From NCBI RefSeq assembly GCF_009192995.1, contig NZ_SDID01000009.1:1-64000 (forward strand): a stretch of 64,000 nt of DNA, written 5' to 3'. The number at the start of each line of letters is the position of its first letter. Position 1 is the stretch's first letter. A program made the translations under genes and the position numbers. The notes below the pieces were generated by a model that worked only from the letters and a program-made list of their open reading frames with translations, did not search any database and had not been told where the DNA came from. This DNA is from Sulfurimonas indica. Lineage in GTDB: Bacteria; Campylobacterota; Campylobacteria; Campylobacterales; Sulfurimonadaceae. Positions 38,439 to 58,047 of the stretch are shown here, piece by piece.

Positions 38439-38468
38439 CACAAACCCAACACAAACTTTTCGTATACT
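38439..38468 (+). promoter_or_regulatory. Copper-regulon promoter box 1 (ytkA-cusCB)
   Basis: CACAAAC at 38439-38445 and CACAAAC at 38450-38456 lie 4 nt apart (11-bp period). A 6-nt gap leads to -10 TATACT at 38463-38468. The same geometry recurs at five other promoters. A divergent -10 for the CopZ-like gene lies just to the left, so the pair may control both directions. Confidence 0.7.
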
Positions 38469-38498
38469 TCTCTTATCAAAATAAAAAAAGGACAAAAA

Positions 38499-38885
38499 AT
38501 GAAATCTTTAACAAAAATCTTTTTAGCACTTCTTCTTGGAGTAAGTCTCTCTCATGCAGCGGCATTCTCTAAAGATGCAAAGTTTCGAACTACTACAGCA
38601 CACATCACAGCTGAAAAACCACTTACAACAGGAGCAAACACTCTTGTTGTCGAGCTTAAAAAAGGTGGTAAAGCTATAGATAATGCAAAAGTAACACTCA
38701 AAGCCTTTATGCCTGCAATGCCGGGTATGCCTGCAATGAGTTCAAAAGTAGAGGCAAAAAACTTAGGCAATGGTAAATATGAAGCTACTTTGAATCTTGC
38801 GATGAGCGGAACATGGCAGCTGCATATTTTCATCACTCCAAAAACGGGGAAAAAGTCTCGCATAAAAACGACACTTAATTTCTAA
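38499..38885 (+). CDS. YtkA/FixH-like exported Met-rich protein
   Basis: 128 residues with a signal peptide (about 1-20, ending S-H-A-A). The mature part is an Ig-like beta domain with N-T-L-V-V-E-L-K-K-G-G-K and G-N-G-K-Y-E-A-T-L-N-L-A-M-S-G-T-W. A Met-rich loop M-P-A-M-P-G-M-P-A-M could bind Cu(I). It is the first gene before cusC and cusB and so likely a periplasmic copper-binding partner of the efflux pump. AAAGGAC precedes the ATG. Confidence 0.75.
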   Translation: MKSLTKIFLALLLGVSLSHAAAFSKDAKFRTTTAHITAEKPLTTGANTLVVELKKGGKAIDNAKVTLKAFMPAMPGMPAMSSKVEAKNLGNGKYEATLNLAMSGTWQLHIFITPKTGKKSRIKTTLNF

Positions 38886-38898
38886 AAAGGAAAAGACG

Positions 38899-40080
38899 GT
38901 GAAAAATTTACTCCTTGGTGCACTTTTACTTGCAAGCTCACTCAGTGCAATGACTCTGAGTGAGCTCATAGAGAGTTCCCTATCACGCGCTCCGTCACTT
39001 GAAATTATCAATGCACGCCTTGTTGCCAATAAGCAAAATATTGATATAGCAGATCAGTTTGAAAATCCTGAGCTGCTACTGACAAAAAACACCATTGACA
39101 GCTCTCAGGCGATGAGTCAGACCGTGCTTACACTCAAACAAAAGATTCCCACCTACTCTAAAAGAGAAAAAAGAGAAGATATTGCACTCTCTGAGGAGAA
39201 ACTGCTTCAAGAAAAACTCCATGCTGCAAAAGTCAAACTTGTAGGGCGCATCAAAAATGAGGCCTATACTATCTGGGAGTTGCGTGAGGAAATACAAATC
39301 ATTGATGAGTACATAATACTAACGAGACAGAACATTCGTCTCTATGAATCCTATACCAGTGTAGATAATAATCAACATATGGGTATTATGAAAGCAGAAC
39401 TCTCGCTCTCAGACCTAAAAGTCCAAAGAAGTGCCTTGGAGGCAAAAAAAGCAGCAGCCTATGCAAGACTCTCTTATCTTGCTGCTCTGAAAGTGACCGA
39501 CTTGACGATTGATCTAAGCATAAAGAAAAAACCAAACTTACAGCAGCTACAAAATTCACTTAAAGAGAGTAACCCTGATCTTTTAATCACACAAAAAGAG
39601 ATACAAAAGCAATCATATGCAGTAGCACTTGCAGAAATTAATAACTATCCCGATATTAACCTTATTGCCGGTTATGCTTATAGAGAAAAGTTTGACAACT
39701 ATTTTAATTTTGGAGTGGGTCTCTCACTCCCAATATATGGCACAGAAGATGCAAAAGAGGAAAAAGAGCGTGCGATTTTACTTGAGAAAAAAAGCAAACA
39801 AAGTGATATAGAGCTAGCAGTGCTTGCACAACTTGAACTTTACTACGAGCAGATGCTCTCATCTTATAAAATACACCATATCATTCAAGATGAAGCTCTC
39901 CCGCAGGTTGCTCATATGTTTGAACTCTCAAGCTCATCCATCTCAGTTGGAAGTGACCTTTTTAAATACATTGATGTGCTTTTTCAAAAGCTCGATCTTG
40001 AGAAAAAAAGCATAAAAGCAGTAGCCAATTACAAACGTGCTGAGGCACAGATATCACAACTACGAGGTGAAATAAAATGA
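38899..40080 (+). CDS. cusC: TolC-like outer-membrane efflux protein (CusC-type)
   Basis: 393 residues with a signal peptide (about 1-17) and the two-fold TolC pattern of long helices and short strands (S-L-S-R-A-P-S-L-E near the start, then a repeat with S-N-P-D-L-L). It begins at GTG 38899 after AAAAGGAAAAG. It would be the outer-membrane exit channel for the CusBA pump. It overlaps cusB by ATGA. No lipobox Cys is seen, unlike E. coli CusC. Confidence 0.85.
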   Translation: MKNLLLGALLLASSLSAMTLSELIESSLSRAPSLEIINARLVANKQNIDIADQFENPELLLTKNTIDSSQAMSQTVLTLKQKIPTYSKREKREDIALSEEKLLQEKLHAAKVKLVGRIKNEAYTIWELREEIQIIDEYIILTRQNIRLYESYTSVDNNQHMGIMKAELSLSDLKVQRSALEAKKAAAYARLSYLAALKVTDLTIDLSIKKKPNLQQLQNSLKESNPDLLITQKEIQKQSYAVALAEINNYPDINLIAGYAYREKFDNYFNFGVGLSLPIYGTEDAKEEKERAILLEKKSKQSDIELAVLAQLELYYEQMLSSYKIHHIIQDEALPQVAHMFELSSSSISVGSDLFKYIDVLFQKLDLEKKSIKAVANYKRAEAQISQLRGEIK

Positions 40081-41081
40081 AAAAATCAACACTATTTTTA
40101 GCACTCCTGCTACCCTTGGCAATATTTGCAAAAGAGAAACCTACAGTACAACAGCTTTTCTCCGTCCAAACTGTCAAAGTAAAAAAGGTGAATACTTCTC
40201 ACTCTAAAAAAAACTATGGCTATGTTGTTGCAGATGAAGCACGCATCTACGATGTAAGCCCTCGTTTTGGCGGTTTTGTGGAGAAACTCTATGCAGATAA
40301 AATATATAAATATGTAAAAAAGGGAGAGCCTTTAGTGACACTTTATTCTCCTGAGGTCTATAAGGCAAAAGAGGATTACCTCAACTCATACAACTATGCA
40401 AAAATTCGCAATAACAAAGGAATGCTCAAAAGTGCTAAACGAAAACTAGAGCTCTTAGGCGTTGATGCAAGGGAGATAGCGGCTGTTTTAAAAGAGAAAA
40501 ATGTCTCACCAAATACAACTATCTATGCACCGACATCCGGTTACATCTTTACAAAAAACATTGTTAATGGTGCAGCTTTTAATGCAAAAAACAGACTCTT
40601 TGAGATAGTAAATCTTGATGAGATATGGGTTGAGACAAAAATCTTTGAAGATGATGTGAACTGGATAAAAAATGCAAATACTTTTGAGGTAAGTTTTAAA
40701 ACTACCCCTAAAATTTATAAGACCAGTAACAAGCTTCTCTATCCAAATTTAGATCCAAAAGAGGCAACTTTGACGATGCGCCTGCGTCTCAAAAATCCAG
40801 ACCACAGACTCTTTCCAGGAATGTATGCTGATGTACTCTCAAGAGATAAAGCAAGAACATACCTTACTCTGCCACAAAGTGCAGTGATTCGTAAAGACGG
40901 AAGATATTATGCCTTTATGATAGGAGAGTTTGAAGGAGAGTATGAACCGGTAGAAGTATCAGTAAAACCGCTTAACAACCAGACCTACATCATTTTAGAT
41001 GGTCTGAGTGCCGGTGATGAAGTGGTTAACAATGCTCTGTTTATGATGGACAGTGATGCACAAATAAATGGGTTATATTGA
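40077..41081 (+). CDS. cusB: RND periplasmic adaptor (CusB-type)
   Basis: 334 residues with a signal peptide (about 1-19), then Y-V-V-A-D-E-A-R-I-Y-D-V-S-P-R-F-G-G-F-V-E-K-L, a lipoyl/barrel-sandwich pair interrupted by a helical hairpin (S-P-E-V-Y-K-A-K), and beta-barrel plus membrane-proximal domains. It is the adaptor linking CusA to CusC. The CusB copper Met triad is not obvious. It is now separated from cusA by an island of about 3.8 kb. Confidence 0.9.
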   Translation: MKKSTLFLALLLPLAIFAKEKPTVQQLFSVQTVKVKKVNTSHSKKNYGYVVADEARIYDVSPRFGGFVEKLYADKIYKYVKKGEPLVTLYSPEVYKAKEDYLNSYNYAKIRNNKGMLKSAKRKLELLGVDAREIAAVLKEKNVSPNTTIYAPTSGYIFTKNIVNGAAFNAKNRLFEIVNLDEIWVETKIFEDDVNWIKNANTFEVSFKTTPKIYKTSNKLLYPNLDPKEATLTMRLRLKNPDHRLFPGMYADVLSRDKARTYLTLPQSAVIRKDGRYYAFMIGEFEGEYEPVEVSVKPLNNQTYIILDGLSAGDEVVNNALFMMDSDAQINGLY

Positions 41082-41115
41082 GATAAAATATTTATCAACT
41101 TCCTTCATCCAATCT

Positions 41116-41527
41116 GAGACCGTTCAAAAATCTGTGTCAATCGGGTAAAATAACAAGTACTCAAGGACACAGAAATGAATATAGAAATAGATGTAGAGCA
41201 ATTTGCTCGTGATATTAAAGCAGGTAAAAGTATTGGTGGTAAAGATGGAGCATTAGGTTCTCTCATAAAACAACTTACAGAAGCTGCACTTGCAGCTGAA
41301 ATAGATTCTCACCTTGCACAAGATATTAGTAAAAACCGTAAAAATGGCTATGCTACTAAAACTATGAAAAGTGAACATGGAGAGTTTGAACTTGATGTTC
41401 CAAGAGACAGAAATGGTAGCTTTGAGCCTGAGATAGTCAAGAAAAATCAACGGACTATGACAGGTGAAATAGAAGAAAAAATACTTTCACTCTATGCACT
41501 TGGCAACAGCTACACTCAAATTGATTC
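41116..41527 (+). mobile_element. IS256-family element, left-end fragment
   Basis: The left end probably begins at GAGACCGTTC (41116), followed by CTGTGTCAA, resembling an IS256 terminal repeat. The transposase starts at ATG 41175 (M-N-I-E-I-D-V-E-Q-F) and shows family motifs L-x-x-A-x-x-x-E-x-x-x-H-L and V-P-R-D-R-N-G-x-F-E-P. After about 115 codons (...N-S-Y-T-Q-I) it stops matching and runs into the methyltransferase end near 41527. The catalytic DDE part and right end are missing, so it is dead. Confidence 0.8.
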
Positions 41528-41532
41528 ATTTT

Positions 41533-42159
41533 TTACTTGGGTTTTCCTAAATTTTTCAAAATCTTTTCAACAGAGATAGTTTCTTTTTCATCTGTTATCA
41601 ATGGAGTTGGTTCAGGAAATTTTCCACAAAAGTATCTTTTCCTATTTGATGCAACGCCAAAATATTTTGCATTATATACTTTAGAAGACGGATATTTTAC
41701 TTGTAAAACTCCATCTTCTTCTATTCCTAACTCTCTAAAAGTATAAAAACCTTTGATATAACCTTCAACGTTTGGAACATTTTCAAGAATCCAATATTTT
41801 AAAATCGAATCTTGTTTCAAAAGCTTCCTTGCAATAATTTTCAAATAAGCTTCAATTAGCTGTATACCTAAAGATTTATCTGCTTTACCTGATTTATTAG
41901 AATTGGAAAAAGAGGTACATGGTGGAGACCCAATAATTACTTCTGTATCTGGAATAAGAGTATTAAATTCTTTATCTGGTAAATTTGCTATTGCAACAAC
42001 ATCACCTAAATAAGTATGTGCCTTAGGATGATTAGCTTCATGCGTGATTACTGCAGGCTTCCATCGATCAACTGCAAAGACAATCTCAAAACCTGCTAGT
42101 TTAAAACCCTCTGAAAATCCACCACCACCACCACAAAAAAAATCTGCTACCCTATACAT
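41533..42159 (-). pseudogene. DNA cytosine-5 methyltransferase, C-terminally truncated
   Basis: 208 residues of a Dcm-type enzyme (normally >300). Motif I F-F-C-G-G-G-G-G-F, motif IV with the catalytic Cys G-S-P-P-C-T-S-F, motif VI E-N-V and motif VIII V-A-S-N-R-K-R-Y-F are present. Motifs IX and X and the target-recognition part are missing. The frame ends at 41533, where the IS256 fragment begins. No partner restriction enzyme is recognised. It is likely inactive. Confidence 0.8.
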
Positions 42160-42186
42160 AAGACCTCACTTCTTTTATAATATTCA

Positions 42187-43374: not shown

Positions 43375-43409
43375 TGTTACTCTCCATGTTTAACTCTCAT
43401 AATATCATA

Positions 43410-43460
43410 ATTAGACTTACAAGTCCATTTTTTATAATAAAAATTAGGTTTACATGTCTA
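43410..43460. promoter_or_regulatory. Tandem 18-bp operator-like repeats
   Basis: ATTAGACTTACAAGTCCA (43410-43427) and ATTAGGTTTACATGTCTA (43443-43460) are 14/18 identical in direct orientation with a 33-bp period. The first contains a palindrome, GACTT-AC-AAGTC. A TTATAATAA segment lies between. They flank the likely promoter of the AAA ATPase gene and may be repressor sites. The repressor is not identified. Confidence 0.5.
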
Positions 43461-43490
43461 ATTATGAAAAATAAATAACTATCTATAGCC

Positions 43491-44817: not shown

Positions 44818-44847
44818 CACAAACCCACCACAAACTTTCACTATAAT
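44818..44847 (+). promoter_or_regulatory. Copper-regulon promoter box 2 (cusA)
   Basis: CACAAAC at 44818-44824 and CACAAAC at 44829-44835, 4 nt apart; a 6-nt gap; -10 TATAAT at 44842-44847. Because cusA has its own copy of the box, the island between cusB and cusA need not silence it. Confidence 0.7.
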
Positions 44848-44874
44848 TTTCAAAACTAAAAATATGGAAGAATT

Positions 44875-47800
44875 ATGATAGAAAAACTCATAGCGCTTAG
44901 CATCAAAAACAGATTTATCGTTCTGCTTGCTGCCCTTGCACTTGTTGGAGCTTCCATCTGGAGTATGAAGCACACGCCTCTTGATGCCTTACCTGATCTC
45001 TCACCTCCACAGGTAATCGTGCAAATTAACTGGGCGGGTCAATCTCCGGAGATTGTTGAAGATCAGGGGACCTATCCGCTTGTTGCACAGTTTTTGGCTA
45101 TTGCCAACATCGATACTGTTCGAGGATACTCTACCTATGAAAATGGGCTGATTTACATCATTTTTAAAGAGGGAACTGACCTCTACTGGGCAAGAAGTCG
45201 TGTACTTGAACAACTCGCTTCCATCCAGTCACAACTACCCAAAAATATGGATGTAGCTCTTGGTCCTGATGCAAGTGGAGTTGGTTGGGTCTATGAGTAT
45301 GCCCTCTCGTCAAAAACAAAAAACCTAGCCGAGCTTCGAACACTTCAAGACTACTACTACAAATATGCACTAATGGGTGTAGATGGAGTCAGTGAAGTTG
45401 CTAGTATCGGTGGATTTATTCCTACCTTTCAAGTTACTCTCAATAACGACAATCTTGTCCGTTATAACCTCAGCATTCAAGATATCGCCAAAGTATTAAA
45501 ACAAAACAATAACGATACCGGTGGCCGTATAGTGATACAAAATGGTTATGAGTGGATGGTTCAAGCCAAAGGCTATATCAAAAACCTTGATGATATCCGC
45601 GCTCTCGTTGTTACAACAAAAGGCGGTACTCCTGTAAAGCTTGGTGATATTGCTAGAGTTGAACTCACACCTGCACCGCGTCGTGGTCTAGCTGATTTAA
45701 ACGGTGAAGGTGAAGTAGTTGGCGGCATAGTTATGGCACGCTATGGCGAAGATGTTTACTCTATGATAAAACGCGTGCAAGAAAAAATGAAAGAACTTAA
45801 AGTTGAGGGTGTCGATGTCATCACTGTATATGACCGTTCAGGGCTTATTGACAAAGCTGTAGACACCTTAAAAGATACACTTATCGAAGAGAGTATCATT
45901 GTTGTTGTCATTATCGGTCTCTTTTTAATGCACTTTCGCTCCTCACTTATTGTCATCATTGTTCTACCACTTACAGTTGGTTTTACCTTTTTACTGATGA
46001 AACTCTTTGGTATTGGCTCAAACATCATGAGTCTTGGCGGTATTGCCATTGCCATCGGAGCGATGGTGGATGCAAGTATCGTTATGATAGAAAATGCCCA
46101 CAAAATGCTGCACAAGTTTGAGCATAAAGAGGGTAGGATGCCTACGGATAAAGAACGCATTGCAATCATTTTAAAATCATCACAACTTGTAGGTCGTCCT
46201 ATCTTTTTTGCACTCGCACTTATCGTTGTCTCTTTTTTACCAATCTTTGCACTCTCAGGTCAAGAAGGACTGCTCTTTACACCGCTTGCATTTACAAAAA
46301 CCTTTGCTATGGCTGCGGGCGCATTCCTCTCTATCACGCTAGTTCCCGTTCTTATGGTCTTTTTTGTCAAAGGGCGTATATTGCCAGAGTCTAAAAATCC
46401 ACTCAACAGATTTTTTATCTGGCTCTATCACCCCATCATCATCTATGGACTCAAACTCAAATATTTAGTCATAGTTTTAGTACTGCTCTCACTTGGCTAT
46501 ATGTACCCGCTCTATAAAAGTCTCAAATGGGAATTTATGCCGATGCTCAATGAGCAGACTTTTATGTATATGCCTGTTACTCCGTATGGTATCAGTATTG
46601 ACCAGAGTAAACAACTCTTACAAAAAACAGACAAAATTTTAAAATCTTTTCCTGAAGTTGAAAATGTCTTTGGAAAAGCAGGACGTGCAGGGACTGCAAC
46701 TGACCCGGCACCTCTTGGTATGCTTGAGACTATCATCACGCTTAAACCGCAAAGTGAGTGGCCAGAGAAAAAATCTTATGATGAGCTGCGTGAGGAGATG
46801 GAAGAAGCCCTGCAGATTCCGGGACTTACAAACTCATGGACCTACCCTATTCGTGGGCGTATTGATATGCTTCTCAGTGGTATCAGAACACCTATAGGGA
46901 TAAAACTCTACGGTATGGATGCTGCGGGACTGCAAAAGTTTGGTAAAAAGATAGAAGAGAAACTGCGCCAGTATGATAAAACACTCTCTGTCTTTGCCGA
47001 TCAGGCAAGTGCAGGGTATTACATCGATATCATCCCAGATGAGGAGAAGCTCTCCCGCTATGAGCTTACAAAAGACACTCTTCTTGAGTACACAGCCCTT
47101 GCAATCGGTGGTATGAAAGTATCTACAATGTATAAAGGACTAGAGCGTTATCCTATCTCTCTGCGTCTTGAAGAGGATGAGCGAAGAAGTCTGGAATCTA
47201 TTCGAAATATCCAGGTAAAAACAAAGCTTGGTTTTGTACCACTTGGCTCTTTGGCAGAAGTAGCATACCGACAGAGTGCATCTGTCATCAAAAGTGAAAT
47301 GGCTCAACCTGTAACATTTATCTACATTACTCCAAAAGAGGGAGTAAGCGCTACAGAGTATAAACTAGGTGCACAAAAGTTCATGAACGAGATAAAATTT
47401 GACCCAGGTTACTATATAGAGTGGGCAGGACAGTCTGAATATTTAGACTCTGCAATGCAGCGTATCATCTGGATAGTGCCTGCCGTTTTAGTCGTGATTT
47501 TCTTGCTTATCTATATGGCGCTTAAAAAGCTCGTACCAACCCTTATCGTCTTTTTTACGCTGCCGTTTGCTCTGCTGGGTGGGCTTATTTATATAGATAT
47601 GCTTAACTTTGCGATGAGTATTGCTGTTATTGTCGGTTTCTTGGCTCTACTTGGTGTAGCAGCTGAGACGGCAATAGTGATGATAATCTACCTCCAAGAG
47701 AGTGTGGATGAGTTAAAAGAAAAAAGAGGTTCTGCATTTAATCTTAAAGACTTAAATGCAGCCATCTATGAAGGTGCAGTTCAAAGAGTACGACCAAAAC

Positions 47801-48000
47801 TGATGACAGTTTTTGCAATCCTCGCAGGTCTTGCACCGATTATGTATACTCACGGAGTGGGAAGTGAAGTGATGCAGCGAATTGCTGCCCCTATGCTTGG
47901 AGGCGTTGTAAGTTCAGCTGTTCTCTCTTTGGTTATAATTCCGATACTCTATGAAATTTATATGAAAAAAGAGATTGAAAATGAAAAAACAGATATTTAA
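44875..48000 (+). CDS. cusA: Heavy-metal RND efflux pump (CusA-type)
   Basis: A 1041-residue inner-membrane pump of the HME-RND group. It starts R-F-I-V-L-L-A-A-L-A and has P-L-D-A-L-P-D-L-S-P-P-Q-V, helix 4 G-A-M-V-D-A-S-I-V-M-I-E-N-A-H-K with acidic residues, and Met-rich sites in the periplasmic loop (W-E-F-M-P-M-L-N-E, F-M-Y-M-P-V-T-P-Y-G). It expels Cu(I)/Ag(I) through CusB and CusC. It has RBS GGAAG and an upstream box. The HMA gene overlaps its 3' end. Confidence 0.95.
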   Translation: MIEKLIALSIKNRFIVLLAALALVGASIWSMKHTPLDALPDLSPPQVIVQINWAGQSPEIVEDQGTYPLVAQFLAIANIDTVRGYSTYENGLIYIIFKEGTDLYWARSRVLEQLASIQSQLPKNMDVALGPDASGVGWVYEYALSSKTKNLAELRTLQDYYYKYALMGVDGVSEVASIGGFIPTFQVTLNNDNLVRYNLSIQDIAKVLKQNNNDTGGRIVIQNGYEWMVQAKGYIKNLDDIRALVVTTKGGTPVKLGDIARVELTPAPRRGLADLNGEGEVVGGIVMARYGEDVYSMIKRVQEKMKELKVEGVDVITVYDRSGLIDKAVDTLKDTLIEESIIVVVIIGLFLMHFRSSLIVIIVLPLTVGFTFLLMKLFGIGSNIMSLGGIAIAIGAMVDASIVMIENAHKMLHKFEHKEGRMPTDKERIAIILKSSQLVGRPIFFALALIVVSFLPIFALSGQEGLLFTPLAFTKTFAMAAGAFLSITLVPVLMVFFVKGRILPESKNPLNRFFIWLYHPIIIYGLKLKYLVIVLVLLSLGYMYPLYKSLKWEFMPMLNEQTFMYMPVTPYGISIDQSKQLLQKTDKILKSFPEVENVFGKAGRAGTATDPAPLGMLETIITLKPQSEWPEKKSYDELREEMEEALQIPGLTNSWTYPIRGRIDMLLSGIRTPIGIKLYGMDAAGLQKFGKKIEEKLRQYDKTLSVFADQASAGYYIDIIPDEEKLSRYELTKDTLLEYTALAIGGMKVSTMYKGLERYPISLRLEEDERRSLESIRNIQVKTKLGFVPLGSLAEVAYRQSASVIKSEMAQPVTFIYITPKEGVSATEYKLGAQKFMNEIKFDPGYYIEWAGQSEYLDSAMQRIIWIVPAVLVVIFLLIYMALKKLVPTLIVFFTLPFALLGGLIYIDMLNFAMSIAVIVGFLALLGVAAETAIVMIIYLQESVDELKEKRGSAFNLKDLNAAIYEGAVQRVRPKLMTVFAILAGLAPIMYTHGVGSEVMQRIAAPMLGGVVSSAVLSLVIIPILYEIYMKKEIENEKTDI

Positions 48001-48274
48001 AGTTCAAAATGTAAAATGTGGAGGGTGTGCAAACACGCTTACGACAAAACTTAAAAGTGAATTTGGTGAGATAGAAGTCAATCTTGAAGTGATGCCGCGT
48101 GAGATAAGTTTAGAGATAGAAGATACTAAAGTTCCTGCGCTACGTGAAGCGCTTAAATCTCTTGGATATCCTATGGCAGATGAGACGCTTGGATTTGTAG
48201 AAAACACTACTGCACAGGCAAAAAGCTTTGTCTCCTGCGCAGTTGGAAAGTTTGAAGTAGCAAAAGGAAAATAA
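47981..48274 (+). CDS. HMA-domain copper chaperone
   Basis: 97 residues. The N-terminal ~67 residues form an HMA domain with N-V-K-C-G-G-C-A-N (C-x2-C metal site) and P-R-E-I-S-L-E-I; the tail adds a possible third ligand in S-C-A-V-G-K-F. It resembles CopZ/CusF-like chaperones in the cytoplasm. I start it at ATG 47981 rather than TTG 47975. It overlaps cusA by 20 nt, so the two are co-translated. Confidence 0.85.
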   Translation: MKKQIFKVQNVKCGGCANTLTTKLKSEFGEIEVNLEVMPREISLEIEDTKVPALREALKSLGYPMADETLGFVENTTAQAKSFVSCAVGKFEVAKGK

Positions 48275-48279: not shown

Positions 48280-48309
48280 CACAAACTCACCACACTCTCT
48301 CACTATAAT
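48280..48309 (+). promoter_or_regulatory. Copper-regulon promoter box 3 (DUF302-SHOCT-copA)
   Basis: CACAAAC at 48280-48286, 4 nt, CACACTC at 48291-48297, a 6-nt gap, then TATAAT at 48304-48309. The second heptamer is weaker, but spacing is identical to the other boxes. Confidence 0.65.
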
Positions 48310-48332: not shown

Positions 48333-48716
48333 ATGATGATTTATAAAACTACAACAAGTTATCCTCTCGAAACTGTCAAAGCACAGATTGCAGAAAAAGC
48401 AAAAACATTGGGCTTTGACCTGCTTGGAAAGTATGAATTTAAAAAAATTCTCAAAAGCAAAGGTTTTGAAATAACACGAGATATTACAGTCTATGAATTA
48501 TATAATCCTGTTGCAACACACTCAGCCCTAAATGCACTTTCTGAAATATCTGTCTATCTACCATGCAGACTCTCTGTTTATCATGAAAATGGAGTGACAG
48601 TACTGGCAACTATCGGTATTAAAAATATTTTACAAGCAAGCAGTATTGATGGTGAACTTCAAAAGCATATGCAAGAGATTTTCAACAAAATACGTGCATT
48701 AATGAACTCATGGTAA
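48333..48716 (+). CDS. DUF302-family protein
   Basis: 127 residues, cytoplasmic, with the DUF302 pattern (A-Q-I-A-E-K-A-K-T-L-G-F, then D-I-T-V-Y-E-L-Y-N-P and L-P-C-R-L-S-V-Y). The last has the conserved P-C-R. DUF302 genes often accompany copper and other metal genes; the function is unknown. AAAGGA precedes ATG. It heads an operon with the SHOCT gene and copA. Confidence 0.85.
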   Translation: MMIYKTTTSYPLETVKAQIAEKAKTLGFDLLGKYEFKKILKSKGFEITRDITVYELYNPVATHSALNALSEISVYLPCRLSVYHENGVTVLATIGIKNILQASSIDGELQKHMQEIFNKIRALMNSW

Positions 48717-48728: not shown

Positions 48729-48920
48729 ATGCATGGTTTCGAATTTGGTATGGGATTTGGTTGGATAATTCCCCTTATTTTGATTTTTTGGCTCTTTTAT
48801 CTCATTGGCAATACACGAGAAAAGGAAGAATCTGCACAGGATATTCTTGATAAAAAATATGCCAATGGTGAGATTAATGAAGAAGAGTATAAAAGAAGAA
48901 AAGCAAACCTAAAACACTGA
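48729..48920 (+). CDS. SHOCT-domain small membrane protein
   Basis: 63 residues. A Gly-rich start and one membrane helix ([15 protein letters not shown]) precede a short SHOCT domain with [19 protein letters not shown]. Such proteins are common in metal-resistance operons. AAAGGAGG precedes the ATG. Role unknown; it may scaffold membrane proteins near CopA. Confidence 0.8.
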
Positions 48921-48934: not shown

Positions 48935-51109
48935 ATGAAAAATGAAGATAAAGAAAATCTCTACTGTGTAGATGATTCCTGTAAGATTGACAACACCTCT
49001 TATACATGCCCGATGCATCCTGAAATTATTCGCAATGAACCTGGGAATTGCCCAATCTGTGGTATGACTCTTGAGCCCATTACTGTGGAGGTAGATGAAA
49101 AAAACGATGAGCTTGATGATATGAGTAGACGTTTTTGGATCAGTACGCTTTTATCATTACCTCTTTTCTTACTTGCTATGATTCATGATATCACACCAGA
49201 GTATATTCCTGACTTTCTTACTGGCAAAATGATTCAGTATATTGAGTTTTTTCTTGCAACACCCGTCGTTTTATGGGGAGGCTGGCCTTTTTATGTCAAA
49301 GGGTATATCTCTATCAAAACATGGAACTTAAATATGTTCACATTAATCTCCATGGGGGTAGGAGCTGCTTATATCTATAGTCTTGTTGCACTATTTTTAC
49401 CAACAATTTTCCCACCACTTATGCAAACAAAAGAGGGTTTGGTACATGTTTACTTTGAAGCAGCTGCAGTAATTACTACTCTTGTACTTTTAGGGCAGGT
49501 TTTAGAACTGCGAGCAAGAAGTAAAACAAATACAGCCATCAAAGAACTCCTCAACCTTGCTCCTAAGAAAGCTCATCGGATTATTAATGCAAAAGGCGAC
49601 GAGGAGGATGTTAATCTTGAACTTGTTCATATCGAAGACAAACTTCGTGTGAAACCAGGAGAGAAGATTCCCGTTGACGGTATTGTCATAGAGGGACAGA
49701 GTAATGTTGATGAATCTATGATAACAGGTGAGCCTGTGTTGGTACAAAAAGCCAGTGGAGATACACTTATAGGGGCTACTATCAATAAAAATGGCACACT
49801 CATTATGGAAGCAACAAAAGTAGGAAGTGATACTTTGCTTGCTCAAATCGTGCAAATGGTTGCCCAAGCACAACGTTCACGTGCACCAATTCAACAGCTT
49901 GCAGATACAGTCTCGGGATATTTTGTTCCTGCAGTTGTAATCTCTGCAGTTCTTGCTTTTATAGGATGGTTTATCTGGGGGCCATCACCACAACTCGCCT
50001 ATGCTGTAGTTGCGGCTGTTTCCGTTTTAATTATTGCCTGTCCCTGTGCACTTGGACTTGCCACTCCAATCTCCATCATGGTTGGAACCGGTCGAGCGGC
50101 ACTTTCAGGAATCCTCATCAAAGATGCAAAAACTTTGGAGAGAATGGAAAAAGTTGATACTTTGGTTGTCGATAAAACAGGAACGCTTACACTCGGGAAA
50201 CCAAAAGTAACTGATTTTATAGTGACTGATGATTTTGGAAAAGATATACTTTTGCAATATGCAGCCTCCATTGAACGTGCGAGTGAGCACCCTCTTGCAC
50301 AGTCTGTTATTGACTTTGCGAAGGAATCCAATATCTCTCTTATAAGTGTCAATGATTTTGAGGCAATACCTGGAAAAGGAGTTATAGCAACAATAGAAGA
50401 ACAAAAAATTTTACTTGGCAGCGAGAGCTTCTTAAAAGAGAACAATATTGATATAGCAGTGATTAAAGAAACAGCTGATGCTATGCGAAGAGATGCAAAA
50501 GGAATTATATTTATGGCAATTAACGGTCAATATGCCGCTATTCTTGCCATTGAAGATCCGATAAAAGAGACTTCTGTTGAAGCCGTGAAAAGACTCACAG
50601 AAGAAGGTATCACTGTTGTGATACTTAGTGGGGATAATGAAACAACTGCCAATGCAGTAGCTAAAAAACTCTCAATTTCCAAAATATATGCCAATGTTCT
50701 ACCGGACGAAAAAGCAGAAGTCGTTAAAGAGCTTCAGGCCAAAGGAGCCATTGTGGCAATGGCAGGTGATGGTATCAATGATGCTCCGGCTCTTGCACAA
50801 GCTGATGTAGGCATTGCTATGGGTACTGGAACGGATGTTGCCATAGAGAGTGCCGGTGTGACCCTAATAAAAGGAGATCTGTTAGGCATTGTAAAAGTAC
50901 TGAAGCTCTCTCGGGCTACTATGAAAAACATACGACAAAATCTCTTTTTCGCATTTATCTATAACAGTTTAGGAGTACCGGTTGCCGCTGGTGTGCTTTA
51001 TCCATTCTTTGGAATTGTGCTCTCTCCTATTATTGCGGCGGCAGCTATGAGTTTCAGTTCTGTTTCTGTTATAGCCAATGCCTTACGTCTTAAAAATACA
51101 AAACTCTAA
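48935..51109 (+). CDS. copA: Copper-exporting P1B-type ATPase
   Basis: 724 residues. The N-terminus has a metal-binding domain, T-C-P-M-H-P-E-I (about 24) and C-P-I-C-G-M near 46, rather than an HMA domain. The P-type core has M-T-G-E-P-V, the metal site C-P-C in A-C-P-C-A-L-G near 369, phosphorylation motif D-K-T-G-T-L-T near 412, H-P-L-A near 450 and G-D-G-I-N-D-A-P near 611. It pumps Cu(I) into the periplasm. AGG precedes ATG. It lies in the box-3 operon. Confidence 0.95.
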
Positions 51110-51119
51110 AAGGAAAAAT

Positions 51120-51500
51120 ATGAAAATATTCTTACTGGCAATTTCTATTTTACTTCTGCTTTTAAGTGGATGCAGTGATGAAAAAGGTGCTAAGGAATCT
51201 ACAGCACCCGGTATGAAATGTGGTGCAGGAAAGTGTGGTGCAAATATGTTTGATGGGAATGCAGCACTTGCTAAAAAGAAAAAAAATATTCTTAAGCAAA
51301 TGAGAGAAGATGATCCTCGAAAAGATTGTGTACTTCAAGCCAGAACGACAAAAGCAACCTATGGCTGCGTGAGAGACCCAAAAACAAAGAAAATGACACT
51401 GAAGTGTGGAGAAGGTAAATGTGGAACCGCCATGAAAGCACCAAAACCTGCAATGAAATGTGGTGTCGGTAAATGTGGTAGTGGAGAGAGTGGTATGTAA
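51120..51500 (+). CDS. Lipoprotein with C-G-x-G-K-C-G repeats (HvfA-like)
   Basis: 126 residues. Signal peptide with lipobox L-L-S-G-C near residue 18, then three Cys repeats: K-C-G-A-G-K-C-G, K-C-G-E-G-K-C-G and K-C-G-V-G-K-C-G. A helical segment with two other Cys sits between repeats 1 and 2. E-G-K-C-G is the motif of HvfA and bufferin-type peptides, whose Cys are modified by MNIO (DUF692) enzymes; no such enzyme is seen here. It ends the copA operon, suggesting copper binding. I use ATG 51120 after AAAAGGAAAAAT rather than a longer frame from 51078. Confidence 0.8.
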   Translation: MKIFLLAISILLLLLSGCSDEKGAKESTAPGMKCGAGKCGANMFDGNAALAKKKKNILKQMREDDPRKDCVLQARTTKATYGCVRDPKTKKMTLKCGEGKCGTAMKAPKPAMKCGVGKCGSGESGM

Positions 51501-52901: not shown

Positions 52902-52957
52902 AACTATTCCTTAATTATTCTGCATAAAATAATTATACTCCCTCTTTCATTAATGGG

Positions 52958-54619
52958 CTATTGTTTTACATCAAGTACTTTTTTTATGGCATCTGCTACA
53001 CGAAAAGAGTTCGCATAAATCGTCCATGTATAAGGGACACTTCCCCCTGTTGGCATAAAAGAGGCATCTGTAACATAAAGGTTCTCTAAGTCATGTGCTT
53101 TGCAGTTTTTATCTAAAACGGAACTTTTTGCATCATTACCGAAACGGCATCCCCCTGCAACCAAATTTGGAGGTGGAGAAGCCGAGATATCATAATCTAT
53201 CTCTACAGCGCCCATCTCACGCAGTACTTTTACGGCCTTTTGTGCCAAATATTCACCGACTTCTAAATCATGTGGATGTCCATAGAGATTAATCACACCA
53301 ACGGGCACACCATACTTGTCTTTTGCCTTCTTATCAACACTTACAAAACACTTATCTGTCGGCAACCAGTCATTAAAGACCTCAAAGGTTAGTACCCGTG
53401 AAGTAGTAAGACGTTTTTGCACTTTTTTAGCCAGTGCCTCACCCCACATGAGATTGCCATGATTATCATAAACCTCACGCATGACACGAGAAATAATATT
53501 TTGATGCTCAAAGAGAAAATCTATAGTTCCCCCTTTTTGCTTTCTCTTGCCATCTTTATAATCGTACCACTGTTGCAGACTTCGGTTAAAAAAAACACCC
53601 ACTTCCATCAGCTCTTTTTGTTGTGCTTGCGTAAGCTTTTCAAATACAAAACGCCCACTGCCGCTTCCCCCGGCAGAGAAAATAAGGTTTTTCCCGACCT
53701 CTTTGCTTGAATTTGCCAAACCATTTGGGAAAAACTTATTTGTAGAGTTCAGTAGCAGTCGTGAGCTCTCTATCGCCTGTGCTGCCAAAACAAAGATCTT
53801 TGCTCGTATGACATGGACAGCTCCCAACCTTGTTTTATAGTAAGCTTTCCTTACTCTTTTGTCATCACTCTCCAGTTTATAGACAAAAGCATCCGTAATG
53901 ATTCTCGCTTTACACTTCTGTAGCAGTGCTGCCCTTGCACTCCCCTTTGCTCCACTTGCACAACCATAAGAGCCACAAAAGTTAGAGTAGTAACAGCCAT
54001 TACGTGAGAGAGCATTTTGAGAAAGAATGGCTCGCGGTGTCGGTATCGATTCAAATCCAAGCTGCTCACATGCCGCATCAAACCATTTAACTGCACCATT
54101 GATAGTAAGTTCCAGATATGGAAAATCTACACTAGAGCGCGGTTCCTGCTGAGAATGATTTACAACTCTTCCACTCACACCGATAATCTTTTCCACTTTT
54201 GTATAGTAAGGTTCCAAATCTTCATATGATATCGGCCAATCCACTACATTGGCACCTTCTATCGCACCATAAGTAGAAAGAAGTTTAAAATCATTTGGCT
54301 TAAGACGATGAAAATAACCGCTCATCAGATTCGATGAACCTCCAACCATATTCCCATTCCAAAAACTCCAATGATACTCCCGTCCATCATAACGTTTGTA
54401 TGTACCATCTTTTTGATACTCATTGATGATATGAAACTCATCTTCAAGTTTTGGAGTAAAGATATCTCTGCGTGAGACAGCAAGCTCATCCTTGTTAAAA
54501 TCAGCTTCGGTATAATTTTTTCCTTTTTCAAGTACTACAACCTCAAACCCAGCAAGACTTAGCTCATAGGCAATTGGTGCTGCTCCCGCACCACTGCCGA
54601 TAATACACACATCAACCAA
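52958..54619 (-). CDS. GMC-type FAD oxidoreductase
   Basis: About 553 residues with an FAD-binding N-terminus (V-C-I-I-G-S-G-A-G-A-A-P-I-A-Y-E), V-L-E-K-G-K, G-G-S-S-N-L-M, a Cys-containing region (G-C-Y-Y-S-N-F-C-G-S-Y-G-C-A) and a C-terminal Y-V-T-D-A-S-F-M-P-T-G-G-S-V-P. The last is the GMC C-terminal signature, with H-P-H-D-L replacing the usual active His-Asn pair region. TTG 54619 has AAGGAG 7 nt upstream and is preferred; GTG 54649 is alternative. It forms a pair with the Tat-exported subunit upstream. Substrate unknown. Confidence 0.85.
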   Translation of the reverse strand: MVDVCIIGSGAGAAPIAYELSLAGFEVVVLEKGKNYTEADFNKDELAVSRRDIFTPKLEDEFHIINEYQKDGTYKRYDGREYHWSFWNGNMVGGSSNLMSGYFHRLKPNDFKLLSTYGAIEGANVVDWPISYEDLEPYYTKVEKIIGVSGRVVNHSQQEPRSSVDFPYLELTINGAVKWFDAACEQLGFESIPTPRAILSQNALSRNGCYYSNFCGSYGCASGAKGSARAALLQKCKARIITDAFVYKLESDDKRVRKAYYKTRLGAVHVIRAKIFVLAAQAIESSRLLLNSTNKFFPNGLANSSKEVGKNLIFSAGGSGSGRFVFEKLTQAQQKELMEVGVFFNRSLQQWYDYKDGKRKQKGGTIDFLFEHQNIISRVMREVYDNHGNLMWGEALAKKVQKRLTTSRVLTFEVFNDWLPTDKCFVSVDKKAKDKYGVPVGVINLYGHPHDLEVGEYLAQKAVKVLREMGAVEIDYDISASPPPNLVAGGCRFGNDAKSSVLDKNCKAHDLENLYVTDASFMPTGGSVPYTWTIYANSFRVADAIKKVLDVKQ

Positions 54620-55106
54620 GGTAAGGCTCCTTCGGTCGTGGCAGGCCACCTGTAAACTTCAGCCATTCCCAACCGGCTTGCTTATTGTTCCCACCATATA
54701 CAGGGTCTCCAAGCATTGCTTCAAACATATAACCCATCACATCATACAAAAAGCTCTCTCCCCATTCTGTTTTAGATATTATCTGCAAAATTGCTTCTCG
54801 CTCTTTGGATGAAAGCTTTTTATACTCTTTCTTGTATCCTATTATTGCCTCTTCATTAAGCCACTTAATACCGTTTTTTATAAAGTCTTTGTCTGCTTTG
54901 GAAATTTTTGGATGGTTAAAAACAACAGTCATATATGAAGCTGTTTCAATGCCAAGTGCTTGTGCTTTAGGAAAGAGGTCTTGGTGCAATACTCTCAGTG
55001 TCTCGATAGGTGTAGTTACTCCAAACAAAGAGCATCCGTCCATCAAAAACAGAGCACCAAATAAAAAACTCGATTGTAAGAATCTTCTACGAGAAAAGGT
55101 TGTCAA
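54612..55106 (-). CDS. Gluconate 2-dehydrogenase subunit 3-like, Tat-exported
   Basis: 164 residues. Twin-arginine signal S-R-R-R-F-L-Q followed by a hydrophobic stretch ending in a lipobox-like M-D-G-C. The mature part has helical pairs including H-Q-D-L-F-P-K-A and G-E-S-F-L-Y-D-V-M-G-Y-M-F-E-A-M-L-G-D-P-V-Y-G-G-N. That matches the gluconate 2-dehydrogenase subunit 3 family, small partners of GMC dehydrogenases that are carried by the Tat route. TTG start at 55106. A cytochrome subunit is not seen nearby. Confidence 0.85.
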   Translation of the reverse strand: MTTFSRRRFLQSSFLFGALFLMDGCSLFGVTTPIETLRVLHQDLFPKAQALGIETASYMTVVFNHPKISKADKDFIKNGIKWLNEEAIIGYKKEYKKLSSKEREAILQIISKTEWGESFLYDVMGYMFEAMLGDPVYGGNNKQAGWEWLKFTGGLPRPKEPYLG

Positions 55107-55272
55107 AGAAGGAACCTTTTTTCTTTGGAGTATAGGCTTCTATTCCCTCATCCACAAAATCAGGATCACCTTTTTCAAACTCTCTCTGCGAGACTTTTTT
55201 TATATGTTTTTTCGGTTTTGTTTCTACATAACCGTTATCTTTTGAGCTCATGACTCCATAAGGAATACACAT
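55087..55272 (-). CDS. Small hypothetical protein, first gene of the GMC operon
   Basis: 61 residues. ATG 55272 is preceded by AGGAGG at ideal spacing, which decides the start over the ATG at 55251. It begins M-C-I-P-Y-G-V and then is Lys/Glu-rich and likely disordered (K-P-K-K-H-I-K-K-V-S, Y-T-P-K-K-K-G-S-F-F-D-N-L-F-S). No signal peptide, unknown function. It overlaps the Tat gene by 20 nt and carries the copper-box promoter at 55302-55331. Confidence 0.65.
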   Translation of the reverse strand: MCIPYGVMSSKDNGYVETKPKKHIKKVSQREFEKGDPDFVDEGIEAYTPKKKGSFFDNLFS

Positions 55273-55301
55273 AACATCCTCCTTTTTCTTTTCTTAACTC
55301 A

Positions 55302-55331
55302 ATTATACAAAAGTTTTGTGTATCTTCTGTG
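55302..55331 (-). promoter_or_regulatory. Copper-regulon promoter box 4 (GMC operon)
   Basis: On the minus strand: CACAGAA (55331-55325), 4 nt, CACAAAA (55320-55314), 6 nt, TATAAT (55307-55302). Same 7-4-7-6 spacing as the other boxes. Confidence 0.65.
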
Positions 55332-55353
55332 TACTTACCATCCTACAGCAATA

Positions 55354-57105
55354 TTAATCGACAAGTGCTTCTACAAAATAACAGTCAACATCCATATAGG
55401 TCTTTCCGGTCTGATCCTTAAAAATCAGTTTGCTTTTGTCAAGTTTTGCAAGTTCATCAACACCGACAACTGCTAAAAGCTGTCGTATTCCTGCTAAGAG
55501 CTGTGCATGATATGAGGCAATGTTTCTTGCTTTTTTCTCAACTAAAAAAGAAGCACGTTTTTTCTTATCTTGTGTAGCAAGTCCAACAGGACAGGATCGG
55601 CCATATGCACCTGAACACTCACGCGCTCGTATACATCCGGCACTCATCATAAAAGCCCTTGCAATCGCTACATAGTCAGCACCAAGCCCAAAGAGTACGA
55701 TAGCATCATCCGGAGTAAGTACTTTCTCACTCGCAATAATTTTCACCTTCTCTCTAACACCTGCCTCATGCAATGCACTCTCAACGATATAGAGTGCTTT
55801 TGCTATTGTCATACCTACACTCATCATCATCTCTAAAGGTGCTGCACCACTTCCGCCATCGCCACCGTCAATGGTTAAAAAATCAGGATAGGCATCAGAG
55901 TTCTGCTGCACTCTTTTTTGAATGAGACTTGCATACTCTGCAAAGTTCTCTTTGGATGAGATGACAATTTTCACACCGACAGGTTTGTCGGAGAGTTTTT
56001 TGAGCCTGCCTACAAAATCAAATAGCTCCTCCAAGCTGTTTGCAAAGGGAAATTTATTTGGAGAGAAGAGATCTTTATGTGCCTCTACACCACGATAATA
56101 CGCTATCTCCTCACTCACCTTCTCTGCTAAAAGTCTCCCACCTGTCTGTTTAGCACCCTGTGCCATTTTTATCTCAGTCATACGGCAAAAACGCATTGTC
56201 TTTTTATAACGCTCTTCATCAAAGTTACCATCAGTATCTCTGACACCGTAAAGACCGCTTCCAATTTGTAAAATAGTATCAGGAATATCATCGGGGATTT
56301 CAGAAGGAAAAACATCAAGAGGTGCACTCCAGTCCACTCTGTAAAAAAGTATCTCTTCTTTGTCAAAAAGATAGCTGTCAGCAGCACCACAGAGGACTAC
56401 CATATGTCTGTAGACTTTTTGTGCTATTGCACCGTTAAGCAAAAATTTTAAAGTTTTATAGACACTTTTGGCAAAAAACGTACCCTCATATATCTCAAAA
56501 AATTTGCACTCTCTTGTATATTTATGAGTGTATAAAAAGTTTGAAGTAAAACCGCCTTCTCCTGTGTTGATAGGAAATCTACCAAGATAAGCTCCCTTTG
56601 TAAAAGCTCGTGTTCCCTCAGGTGAGATTGCACCATCGCTCATAGCACTTCTGCCAAAAACAGAATGCGTTACAAAAGGCTTTGGAGAGTTTTCTCCAAA
56701 AGTAACAGAAAAGTTATTACTGACATCTTCGGTATTTAAAACACAGTTGGCATTTTTAATGGCAAGTCGTGCACTCTTTTGCGGTTGTCCCGGGGAAAAT
56801 GAAGCGTAGGCAGATCTTCTCTCAGCTGAATCATAAACCCACTTAACCTTATCAAAGGAGTCATAGAACTGTTCATCTCCAAAATATTGTCGCATTGGAT
56901 TACGCAAAGCATAAAAGAGATAGCGCAATCTTCCGATAAGCGGATAGTTGATAAGCAGTTGATTCTCTCTTTGAATATATCTATCATAGATAAAAATTAC
57001 AATAGAGAGAGCCAGAATGAGAATGACAAATGCCTTCATCAAAAACATCATAATGGGAAAATTGATATGTCCTATCTTATGTGTAAACTCTACTAACTCT
57101 TCCAT
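55354..57105 (-). CDS. FMN-binding glutamate-synthase-like protein
   Basis: 583 residues. One membrane helix near the N-terminus (about 16-38) anchors a large FMN/TIM-barrel domain of the glutamate synthase central/FMN family: G-V-K-I-V-I-S-S-K-E, D-G-G-D-G-G-S-G-A-A-P, I-I-A-S-E-K-V-L-T-P-D-D, G-A-D-Y-V-A-I-A-R and a Cys cluster R-A-R-E-C...C-P-V-G-L-A-T-Q that could bind an iron-sulfur centre. No glutaminase domain. Its real reaction is unknown. It lies 4 nt after doxX. Confidence 0.85.
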   Translation of the reverse strand: MEELVEFTHKIGHINFPIMMFLMKAFVILILALSIVIFIYDRYIQRENQLLINYPLIGRLRYLFYALRNPMRQYFGDEQFYDSFDKVKWVYDSAERRSAYASFSPGQPQKSARLAIKNANCVLNTEDVSNNFSVTFGENSPKPFVTHSVFGRSAMSDGAISPEGTRAFTKGAYLGRFPINTGEGGFTSNFLYTHKYTRECKFFEIYEGTFFAKSVYKTLKFLLNGAIAQKVYRHMVVLCGAADSYLFDKEEILFYRVDWSAPLDVFPSEIPDDIPDTILQIGSGLYGVRDTDGNFDEERYKKTMRFCRMTEIKMAQGAKQTGGRLLAEKVSEEIAYYRGVEAHKDLFSPNKFPFANSLEELFDFVGRLKKLSDKPVGVKIVISSKENFAEYASLIQKRVQQNSDAYPDFLTIDGGDGGSGAAPLEMMMSVGMTIAKALYIVESALHEAGVREKVKIIASEKVLTPDDAIVLFGLGADYVAIARAFMMSAGCIRARECSGAYGRSCPVGLATQDKKKRASFLVEKKARNIASYHAQLLAGIRQLLAVVGVDELAKLDKSKLIFKDQTGKTYMDVDCYFVEALVD

Positions 57106-57109
57106 CTAC

Positions 57110-57550
57110 TTAGCTTTTCTCTCCAAAGATAATTCTGTCAAGTGAAAATCTTCCCGCACCGTGTGCTATAAAGATAATCAAAAAGAGCATATAGTAAAGC
57201 GGTATCTCAAAACCGTTATTACCTGCCTCAAAACCATTAGGAAGGTGTACAGTTACAATAGCCACTATCATAATAACAATCAGTGGAATGGAGATAAGAC
57301 GTGTCAAAAATCCAAACGTTAAAAGTACTACACCTATTATCTCTGTAGTTGCTGCCATATAAGCATTGAGCGTTGGGAAAGGTATACCGATAGAGCCAAA
57401 CCATTCAGCAACAGAGCCTATATCACTCCACTTCATCATAGCCGGTTGGTAAAATCCATAAGCAACAACAAGCCGTGCTAGTAACAAACTGACAGACTGC
57501 AGATACTCGCTCAAACGGGAAAACTCTAAATAAATTTTTTTGATATTCAT
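57110..57550 (-). CDS. DoxX-family membrane protein (HvfX-like)
   Basis: 146 residues with four membrane helices, family motifs A-R-L-V-V-A-Y-G-F-Y-Q-P-A, E-I-I-G-V-V-L-L-T-F-G-F and H-G-A-G-R-F-S-L-D. DoxX proteins accompany MNIO-type Cys-peptide clusters (HvfX) and other redox genes. Here it lies downstream of the Cys-repeat gene at 57689 and has its own copper box. GAAGGAG precedes ATG. Role unproven; electron transfer or peptide handling is possible. Confidence 0.85.
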   Translation of the reverse strand: MNIKKIYLEFSRLSEYLQSVSLLLARLVVAYGFYQPAMMKWSDIGSVAEWFGSIGIPFPTLNAYMAATTEIIGVVLLTFGFLTRLISIPLIVIMIVAIVTVHLPNGFEAGNNGFEIPLYYMLFLIIFIAHGAGRFSLDRIIFGEKS

Positions 57551-57577
57551 AATAAACTCCTTCGTTTATAAAAGATA

Positions 57578-57607
57578 AGTCTACCTTTTATTTGTGTAGG
57601 AAGTGTG
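57578..57607 (-). promoter_or_regulatory. Copper-regulon promoter box 5 (doxX operon)
   Basis: On the minus strand: CACACTT (57607-57601), 4 nt, CACAAAT (57596-57590), 6 nt, TAGACT (57583-57578). Confidence 0.6.
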
Positions 57608-57630
57608 TAGAAGATTTTAGAAGCAAGGTA

Positions 57631-57668
57631 TAGACTTCTTGCTTATCTATAATTATGCAAGAAGTCTA
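57631..57668. repeat. 12-bp inverted repeat between the Cys-repeat gene and doxX
   Basis: TAGACTTCTTGC at 57631-57642 and GCAAGAAGTCTA at 57657-57668 are perfect complements with a 14-nt AT-rich gap. It could be a weak terminator for the 57689 gene or an operator. No T-run follows on the minus strand. Confidence 0.5.
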
Positions 57669-57688
57669 ATAGGGGAAGTAATATAACT

Positions 57689-57937
57689 CTATTTGTTACC
57701 GCCACATTTACCGACACCGCACTTCATAGCTTTTTTCTTTGCTTTTTTTGCATCGCCGCACTTTTTCGCCTCTGCTTTATCCATTTTAGCACCACACTTC
57801 ATCTTCTTAACCGGCTTTTCCATTTTAGAACCACATTTTCCAGCTCCACACTTCATGCCCTCTGCACTCGCAGTTGTTCCAAATCCTACAAAAAAAGCCG
57901 CTGCTAAAAGCATTGCTGCTACATTTAATCTTTTCAT
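57689..57937 (-). CDS. Secreted protein with C-G-x-G-K-C-G repeats (HvfA-like)
   Basis: 82 residues. Signal peptide (about 1-25, ending A-S-A-E-G), then K-C-G-A-G-K-C-G, K-C-G-A-K, K-K-C-G-D and K-C-G-V-G-K-C-G-G-N-K. The mature protein is almost only Cys, Gly, Lys, Met, Ala, so it is likely a metal-binding or modified peptide. I use ATG 57937 with AAGGATGAG upstream; a longer frame to 57976 lacks support. It shares the motif with the gene at 51120 and has a copper box. Confidence 0.8.
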   Translation of the reverse strand: MKRLNVAAMLLAAAFFVGFGTTASAEGMKCGAGKCGSKMEKPVKKMKCGAKMDKAEAKKCGDAKKAKKKAMKCGVGKCGGNK

Positions 57938-58017
57938 CTTCTCATCCTTTGATTTTAAGTTGAACAAGTGTAACACAAAATAAGAAATATTTATGTGATA
58001 CTTGTTACATTGGAACT

Positions 58018-58047
58018 ATTTTATAGAAATAGTGTGTAGTATTTGTG
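58018..58047 (-). promoter_or_regulatory. Copper-regulon promoter box 6 (Cys-repeat gene)
   Basis: On the minus strand: CACAAAT (58047-58041), 4 nt, CACACTA (58036-58030), 6 nt, TAAAAT (58023-58018); TATAAA also overlaps. Leads a UTR of about 75 nt. Confidence 0.6.

Follow-up and report, generated by a model that had tools for sequence, protein, structure and literature searches.

The operator of CusR takes the form of an inverted repeat. The PhoB site consists of two direct repeats of 11 bp, in each of which a 7-bp core is joined by 4 less conserved bases (PMC2648988), and HP1043 (HsrA) of Helicobacter pylori uses direct repeats of hexamers whose centres lie 11 bp from one another (PMC5253667). 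CrdR of the CrdRS system of the same species has been reported, according to a passage of PMC9927306 that cites the finding, to mediate copper resistance and to bind at crdA to a sequence of 21 nt. For Sulfurimonas, a widespread sulfur-oxidising genus, we found no description of copper control in the literature. Here we analyse a box shared by six promoters of Sulfurimonas indica in a stretch of 64,000 nucleotides (positions 1 to 64,000 of contig NZ_SDID01000009.1, assembly GCF_009192995.1; hereafter the window), which lies on contig C52 of a 2.09 Mb genome in 52 contigs. As judged from its form, its conservation and its distribution, the box very probably serves as the operator through which one or both of two paralogous response regulators, RR1 and RR2, govern a two-component regulon for copper stress.

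The original prediction placed two CACA-type heptamers 4 nt apart and a -10 hexamer 6 nt further on at six promoters, and all six boxes are exact in coordinates and strand, the 7-4-7-6 spacing being literally true in six out of six. They precede ytkA-cusC-cusB (Box 1, CACAAACCCAACACAAACTTTTCGTATACT; 38439..38468, +, CACAAAC-CCAA-CACAAAC-TTTTCG-TATACT), cusA-HMA (Box 2; 44818..44847, +, CACAAAC-CCAC-CACAAAC-TTTCAC-TATAAT), DUF302-SHOCT-copA-KCG lipoprotein (Box 3; 48280..48309, +, CACAAAC-TCAC-CACACTC-TCTCAC-TATAAT), the small open reading frame (ORF)-Gluconate_2-dh3-GMC operon (Box 4; 55302..55331, -, CACAGAA-GATA-CACAAAA-CTTTTG-TATAAT), the operon of doxX and a flavin mononucleotide (FMN) enzyme (Box 5; 57578..57607, -, CACACTT-CCTA-CACAAAT-AAAAGG-TAGACT) and the gene of a KCG-repeat, HvfA-type peptide (Box 6; 58018..58047, -, CACAAAT-ACTA-CACACTA-TTTCTA-TAAAAT). 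CACA alone is invariant in each half, and the consensus half-site is CACAAAC. The direct repeats have an 11-bp period and stand at a fixed distance from a sigma-70 -10 element, which reads TATAAT in the sites of relatives, without a -35 element; the PhoB/OmpR-type geometry that had been proposed is thus present, with a tandem repeat of 11-bp period where a -35 element would stand.

A search of the whole window with the pattern CACA-N7-CACA-N9-TANNNT returned six matches, all of them the named boxes, so that the claim that no other promoter in the window shows the arrangement holds throughout the 64 kb, while 100 dinucleotide shuffles of the window gave a mean of 0.04 matches and a maximum of 1. 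The whole genome contains 12 matches (reversed control pattern, 1), six of which cluster within 20 kb in the window. A position matrix trained on 121 promoter sites of relatives, none from the window, and therefore free of circularity, ranks the six boxes at the top (25.0-35.0 bits), the next window position scoring 4.9 and the best position in three shuffled windows 10.9.

A motif scan of relatives had been named in advance as a test that could overturn the prediction, and it found the box enriched before copper genes. Scanning contigs with RR1 yielded 45 loci of Sulfurimonas type, with 63-86% identity and bearing the name Sulfurimonas, Helicobacteraceae or Campylobacterales, as well as 35 distant loci. 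In the 613 kb of the 45 RR1-orthologue loci the spacing pair (7, 9) occurs 54 times, with a sharp peak at CACA-N7-CACA, while other pairs mostly occur 0-3 times; the higher counts, none above 14, belong mostly to registers shifted by two bases and are taken to reflect overlapping CACACA runs. The 35 loci around the distant regulators contain no exact-spacing box. The genes behind the box in relatives are those of the window—ytkA, cusC, cusA, lipoprotein-KCG, DUF302/SHOCT-copA, small ORF-Gluconate_2-dh3-GMC, doxX and KCG peptides—and the median distance from the -10 to the start codon is 27-29 nt in every group. Orthologous ytkA promoters bear it, and it recurs at the equivalent place before cusA (loci L017-L020, L028, L050, L157, L160), DUF302/SHOCT-copA (L029, L057, L160, L163, L166), doxX (L141, L158, L161, L162, L167) and the KCG peptides (L137, L138, L141, L143, L146, L158, L161, L167).

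The regulon is not confined to the six promoters of the window. Elsewhere in the same genome the full promoter architecture also stands before dsbD (G000:C1:175062; DsbD_N, start at +29; recurring in G016, G002 and G001), msrB (C5:29472; SelR, start at +30; recurring in G016) and a Lcl_C-domain gene (C1:97401; start at +24; recurring in G016 and, at a similar gene, in G002). Two further genome matches were not taken as targets: C5:35582 is not followed by an ORF start, and C5:41488 has no CACAAA-type halves and no target common to relatives. Targets added in relatives comprise multicopper-oxidase-like proteins with a twin-arginine translocation (Tat) signal, a CxxCH cytochrome-like protein and a MerA-like flavoprotein, named by eye from N-terminal sequence; when two short N-terminal pieces from these targets were scanned against Pfam, neither matched.

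A regulator and a kinase within the window had been singled out as candidates, and both are of the appropriate type: RR1 (35211..35858, -; Response_reg + Trans_reg_C) is an OmpR/PhoB-type response regulator and HK1 (34106..35248, -) a HisKA-type histidine kinase. They are not the only such pair, and here the prediction was incomplete, since the paralogous OmpR/PhoB-type system RR2/HK2 lies at C52:65759-67556, 1.8 kb past the window end, RR2 being 48% identical to RR1. In relatives L157, L160 and L163 the box heads a copZ-RR1-HK1 operon, and it is also found divergently beside RR1, or beside RR2 (L146, L153, L155), an arrangement that suggests autoregulation of the regulator. Counted over 51 HK1 and 20 HK2 sequences, the periplasmic residues His59, Met73 and His120 of HK1 are conserved at 98%/75%, 100%/100% and 100%/100%, respectively, and are candidate Cu(I) ligands.

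Among 135 genomes of the genus, the mean number of boxes per genome is 8.6 where both regulators are present, 5.5 where RR1 and 6.0 where RR2 is the only one, and 2.1 in the absence of both (reversed-pattern control, 1.1); these classes were assigned by length and identity from a list ending at E ~6e-43, and a few genomes may therefore be misassigned. The KCG-doxX-Gluconate_2-dh3-GMC operon is found in genomes without RR1 and RR2 as well (L209-L222), its gene order unchanged and no box before it. Upstream of GMC, a box matching at least 10 of the 11 conserved positions is present in 35 of 43 regulator-bearing genomes vs 1 of 18 lacking both regulators (Fisher p 3e-8, a value overstated because it is inflated by relatedness), the sole exception, G098, being a genome 75% complete. 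Boxes are retained in G018, a complete single-contig genome with RR1 only, and in the near-closed RR2-only genomes G001 and G012-G015, and RR1-only and RR2-only genomes alike carry the box at the promoters of KCG/GMC genes as well as cus/cop genes, so that either regulator appears sufficient and RR1 and RR2 each probably read it. Other kinase and response-regulator genes adjoin the KCG/GMC operon in L218 and L220, which have neither RR1 nor RR2, and in the RR1-only genome G009 (L227), perhaps as replacement control.

Several observations weigh against the two-component copper regulon. The inflation of the Fisher value is one of them: after correction for relatedness on the GMC tree, 3-4 of the independent pairs that remain are concordant and 0 discordant (sign test p 0.125-0.25), and the association of regulator and box is then consistent, not significant. 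GMC also occurs without the box in the RR1-only genomes G009, G115, G056 and G066 of the deeper clade and in the RR2 genomes G030 and G049, and the RR1 and RR2 genes of S. indica itself have no box. Finally, RR1 scores 86.4 bits with the CusR/CopR/SilR model TIGR01387 (cut-off 279.2) and HK1 79.0 bits with the CusS/CopS model TIGR01386 (cut-off 292.55), on which grounds membership of CusRS/CopRS was rejected; since both lie far below these cut-offs, it is only from the targets that copper sensing is deduced.

In the mechanism that best fits these data, phosphorylated RR1 (in most relatives also, or instead, RR2) would bind the 11-bp tandem repeat CACAAAC-N4-CACAAAC as a head-to-tail dimer and, from the -35 place, recruit sigma-70 polymerase to the TATAAT located 9 nt past the second CACA. 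We infer direct binding, and activation rather than repression, the box replacing the -35 element and recruitment thus being the likely mode. HK1 and HK2 probably sense periplasmic Cu(I) through the conserved His/Met residues. The response would then include copper export by CopA from the cytoplasm and by CusCBA from the periplasm, copper buffering by the HvfA-type KCG peptides, and periplasmic redox upkeep by HvfX/DoxX, the Tat-exported Gluconate_2-dh3/GMC dehydrogenase and the FMN enzyme, and, encoded elsewhere in the genome, DsbD and MsrB.

Alternative explanations differ widely in how much of this they can accommodate. Chance or coding-sequence conservation does account for one genome match, C9:34010 (relatives L274, L279, L284), which reflects coding conservation within a dapE-like gene and was dropped; for the six boxes, however, chance is excluded by the shuffles, the spacing scan and the independent-matrix scan, and as the origin of the box it has a vanishingly small probability and is refuted for the window sites. 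An unrelated activator could read the box while RR1 and RR2 merely co-occur with it, as the linkage of regulator and box is correlative and loses its significance after correction for relatedness, but we regard this as highly improbable: in relatives the promoter regions of the regulator operons themselves contain the box, box counts are additive with either paralogue, and an 11-bp tandem repeat at the -35 place is the form expected for the OmpR/PhoB-type class. The signal might also be metal or thiol stress of the periplasm in general (from silver, sulfide-redox or oxidative), copper export being one output among others, as the presence of the box at dsbD, msrB and the Lcl_C-domain gene and the failure of HK1 to match any copper-sensor model would allow; this is unlikely, the majority of the targets being copper-linked (CopA, CusA/CzcA, CopZ, multicopper-oxidase-like proteins and HvfA/HvfX).

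How the work is shared between the two regulators is a separate matter. It is possible, though we lean away from it, that RR2/HK2 is the main reader, or that the sites are split, RR1 reading CACAAACNCNCCACA sites at cus/cop and RR2 TACACA-type sites at KCG/doxX/GMC. In the window the second CACA is preceded by AA or AC at the cus/cop sites and by TA at the other three; across RR1 loci and genomes with both regulators, T(A/G) occupies this position in 12/15 KCG/GMC vs 14/52 cus/cop sites (p 5e-4); RR2-only genomes use TACACA; and the recognition helices differ at several positions (DDAIRTIVKNLRK against DATLRSHIRTLRE) but have R189, R196 and a basic amino acid at position 193 in common. Sequence logos read CCTCACAAACTCCTCACAAAC for the deep RR1 clade and TACACAAA-N-ACTACACA for RR2-only genomes. 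A clean division, with cus for RR1 and KCG/GMC for RR2, is favoured by the spacer statistics but contradicted on both sides, as the complete RR1-only genome G018 has sites of the TACACA type at KCG/doxX/GMC and also at cusC and cusA, and RR2-only genomes have boxes at cus/cop genes too, the two specificities evidently overlapping. Partial specialisation of RR1 and RR2 with overlap is the simplest reading.

The genes behind the boxes in the window are mostly of recognisable copper families. Box 1 is followed on the forward strand by a YtkA-like periplasmic protein (38499..38885), a cusC-type outer-membrane efflux protein (38899..40080) and a cusB-type adaptor (HlyD_D23; 40077..41081), and Box 2 by the heavy-metal resistance-nodulation-division pump gene cusA (44875..48000, +; TIGR00914, CusA/CzcA, above cut-off) and an HMA-domain copper chaperone-like protein (47975..48274, +). 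Mutator transposase and C5-methylase remnants (41175-42159) separate cusB from cusA, two genes that are near neighbours in many relatives. Box 3 precedes a DUF302 protein (48333..48716, +), a SHOCT-domain small membrane protein (48729..48920, +), the copper P-type ATPase gene copA (48935..51109, +; TIGR01511 above cut-off, CPC motif) and an HvfA-type lipoprotein with KCG motifs (51120..51500, +, from an ORF opening at 51078, the start at 51120 being deduced), which has a lipobox-like LLSGC. A CopZ-type Fe-S metallochaperone (37909..38403, -; CopZ NCBIfam model above cut-off) is separated from RR1 by a DEAD/UvrD-type helicase in several ORF fragments (35932-37852), which break the copZ-RR1-HK1 operon found in relatives.

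On the reverse strand, Box 4 heads an operon in which a conserved small protein of 61 aa (55087..55272, -) is followed by a Gluconate_2-dh3 subunit (PF13618; 54612..55106, -) with the Tat-type signal SRRRFLQ and by a GMC flavoprotein (52958..54649, -) homologous to the catalytic subunits of flavin adenine dinucleotide (FAD)-glucose/fructose dehydrogenases. Box 5 precedes a DoxX-family HvfX (57110..57550, -) and an FMN-binding glutamate-synthase-like enzyme with an N-terminal membrane segment (55354..57105, -). Box 6 belongs to the KCG-repeat peptide with a signal peptide (57689..57937, -), and its place before this gene, conserved in relatives, was predicted correctly, except that it does not directly precede the GTG at 57976 where the ORF opens and stands 81 nt upstream of the likely, deduced start ATG at 57937. 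Within the leader of this gene (57938-58017, -) lies a further conserved element, TGTAACA...CACATAAA...TTTATGTTACA(A/C)T, whose extended -10 resembles TGnTACAAT; the element is common to L158, L161 and L167 and partly to L162, and is perhaps another promoter or operator.

Oxidoreductases and Cys-peptides had been described as uncharacterised and newly tied to copper efflux. GMC, DoxX and the Cys-peptide do belong to the same regulon as the copper genes; the Cys-peptide and DoxX, however, are of a known kind, assigned by NCBIfam to the HvfA/HvfX families of copper peptides. Both KCG precursors, of the KCGxGKCG type, match NF050137, the model of the HvfA-type KCGExKCG domain (cut-off 19.5), 57689-57976 marginally with 20.0 bits and 51078-51500 with 34.0, while the full HvfA equivalog NF050188 gives 23.2 bits of a required 95, and the DoxX protein is an HvfX/DoxX maturation protein by NF050144 (125.8 bits, cut-off 80). 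No MNIO (PF05114) is encoded anywhere in the 2.09 Mb genome, whose completeness is 100, and no MNIO or DUF2063 partner stands beside the KCG/DoxX genes of the window, so that Hvf-type maturation by MNIO was rejected for this genome; in the genus, MNIO was found in 5/135 genomes and is missing from 130/135. One of these rare cases, L174 (contig C119 of G061), is a canonical-looking cluster of KCG peptide, MNIO, DUF2063-like protein and DoxX, in a genome that additionally has a KCG-DUF4395-GMC operon. In the KCG-GMC operon of L214, L216, L219 and L221, DoxX gives way to a DUF4395 membrane protein with a KC(E/D)xGKCG repeat at its end.

The GMC orthologue is present in 86/135 genomes of the genus and in 69/397 genomes of the class, from 21 genera. 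KCG peptides are encoded near GMC in 11/15 loci without RR1 and RR2, 10/11 RR2-only loci, 5/5 other clusters and 6/20 non-Sulfurimonas loci, against 0/35 control loci. The best PDB match of the GMC protein is the FAD-glucose dehydrogenase 6a2u (E 1e-56), and its pairing with a Tat-signal Gluconate_2-dh3 protein is the gamma-alpha pairing of this type of enzyme; no cytochrome c beta subunit is present in the operon, where GMC is followed by a beta-CASP gene. Owing to the Tat motif on its partner, the GMC/Gluconate_2-dh3 pair is probably periplasmic, like the KCG peptides. We tentatively propose, with considerable doubt, that KCG peptide, HvfX, (FMN enzyme), Gluconate_2-dh3 and GMC form an MNIO-independent copper-peptide pathway of Campylobacterota, in which a periplasmic flavin dehydrogenase would mature the Cys peptide or oxidise or recycle its Cu(I)-thiolate complexes.

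The original prediction is thus largely right and its finding real, its interpretation being partly supported in that a second regulator was missed and the statistical link has its limits. The result is a testable, sequence-defined candidate copper regulon for Sulfurimonas, with two paralogous regulators that probably share one operator. Its newest part is the copper-peptide arrangement without MNIO, since a common box or operon links MNIO-less HvfA-type copper peptides to the GMC/Gluconate_2-dh3 dehydrogenase and the FMN enzyme; a literature search, limited and no proof of novelty, found no paper linking GMC to KCG-type peptides. Should the GMC and FMN enzymes indeed have the peptide as their substrate, copper-binding peptides would have a second chemistry.

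Compared with known systems, the box resembles the Pho box in being a pair of 11-bp direct repeats that occupies the -35 position within a sigma-70 promoter, and RR1 shares the Response_reg + Trans_reg_C domains of PhoB; by contrast, the core is CACAAAC or TACACAAA rather than CTGTCAT, the regulon is one of copper rather than phosphate, and RR1 scores 102.7 bits vs a PhoB model cut-off of 296.2. The hexamers of HP1043 are TTTAAG repeats, and this regulator is an orphan, essential and in charge of another regulon. With CusRS/CopRS (TIGR01387/TIGR01386) the system shares an OmpR-family regulator and kinase over CusCBA and CopA-type genes, whereas its operator is a direct repeat and RR1/HK1 are not members by the curated models; CrdRS is, like it, a two-component system of Campylobacterota. 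Finally, the Hvf/Gig/bufferin clusters for copper-related ribosomally synthesized and post-translationally modified peptides (HvfA, the MNIO HvfB, HvfC and HvfX; gigPABT) likewise combine a secreted KCG-repeat peptide, a DoxX-type HvfX and a copper context, but in S. indica Gluconate_2-dh3/GMC and the FMN enzyme are linked to the peptide instead of an MNIO, and control lies with a two-component box rather than a sigma factor.

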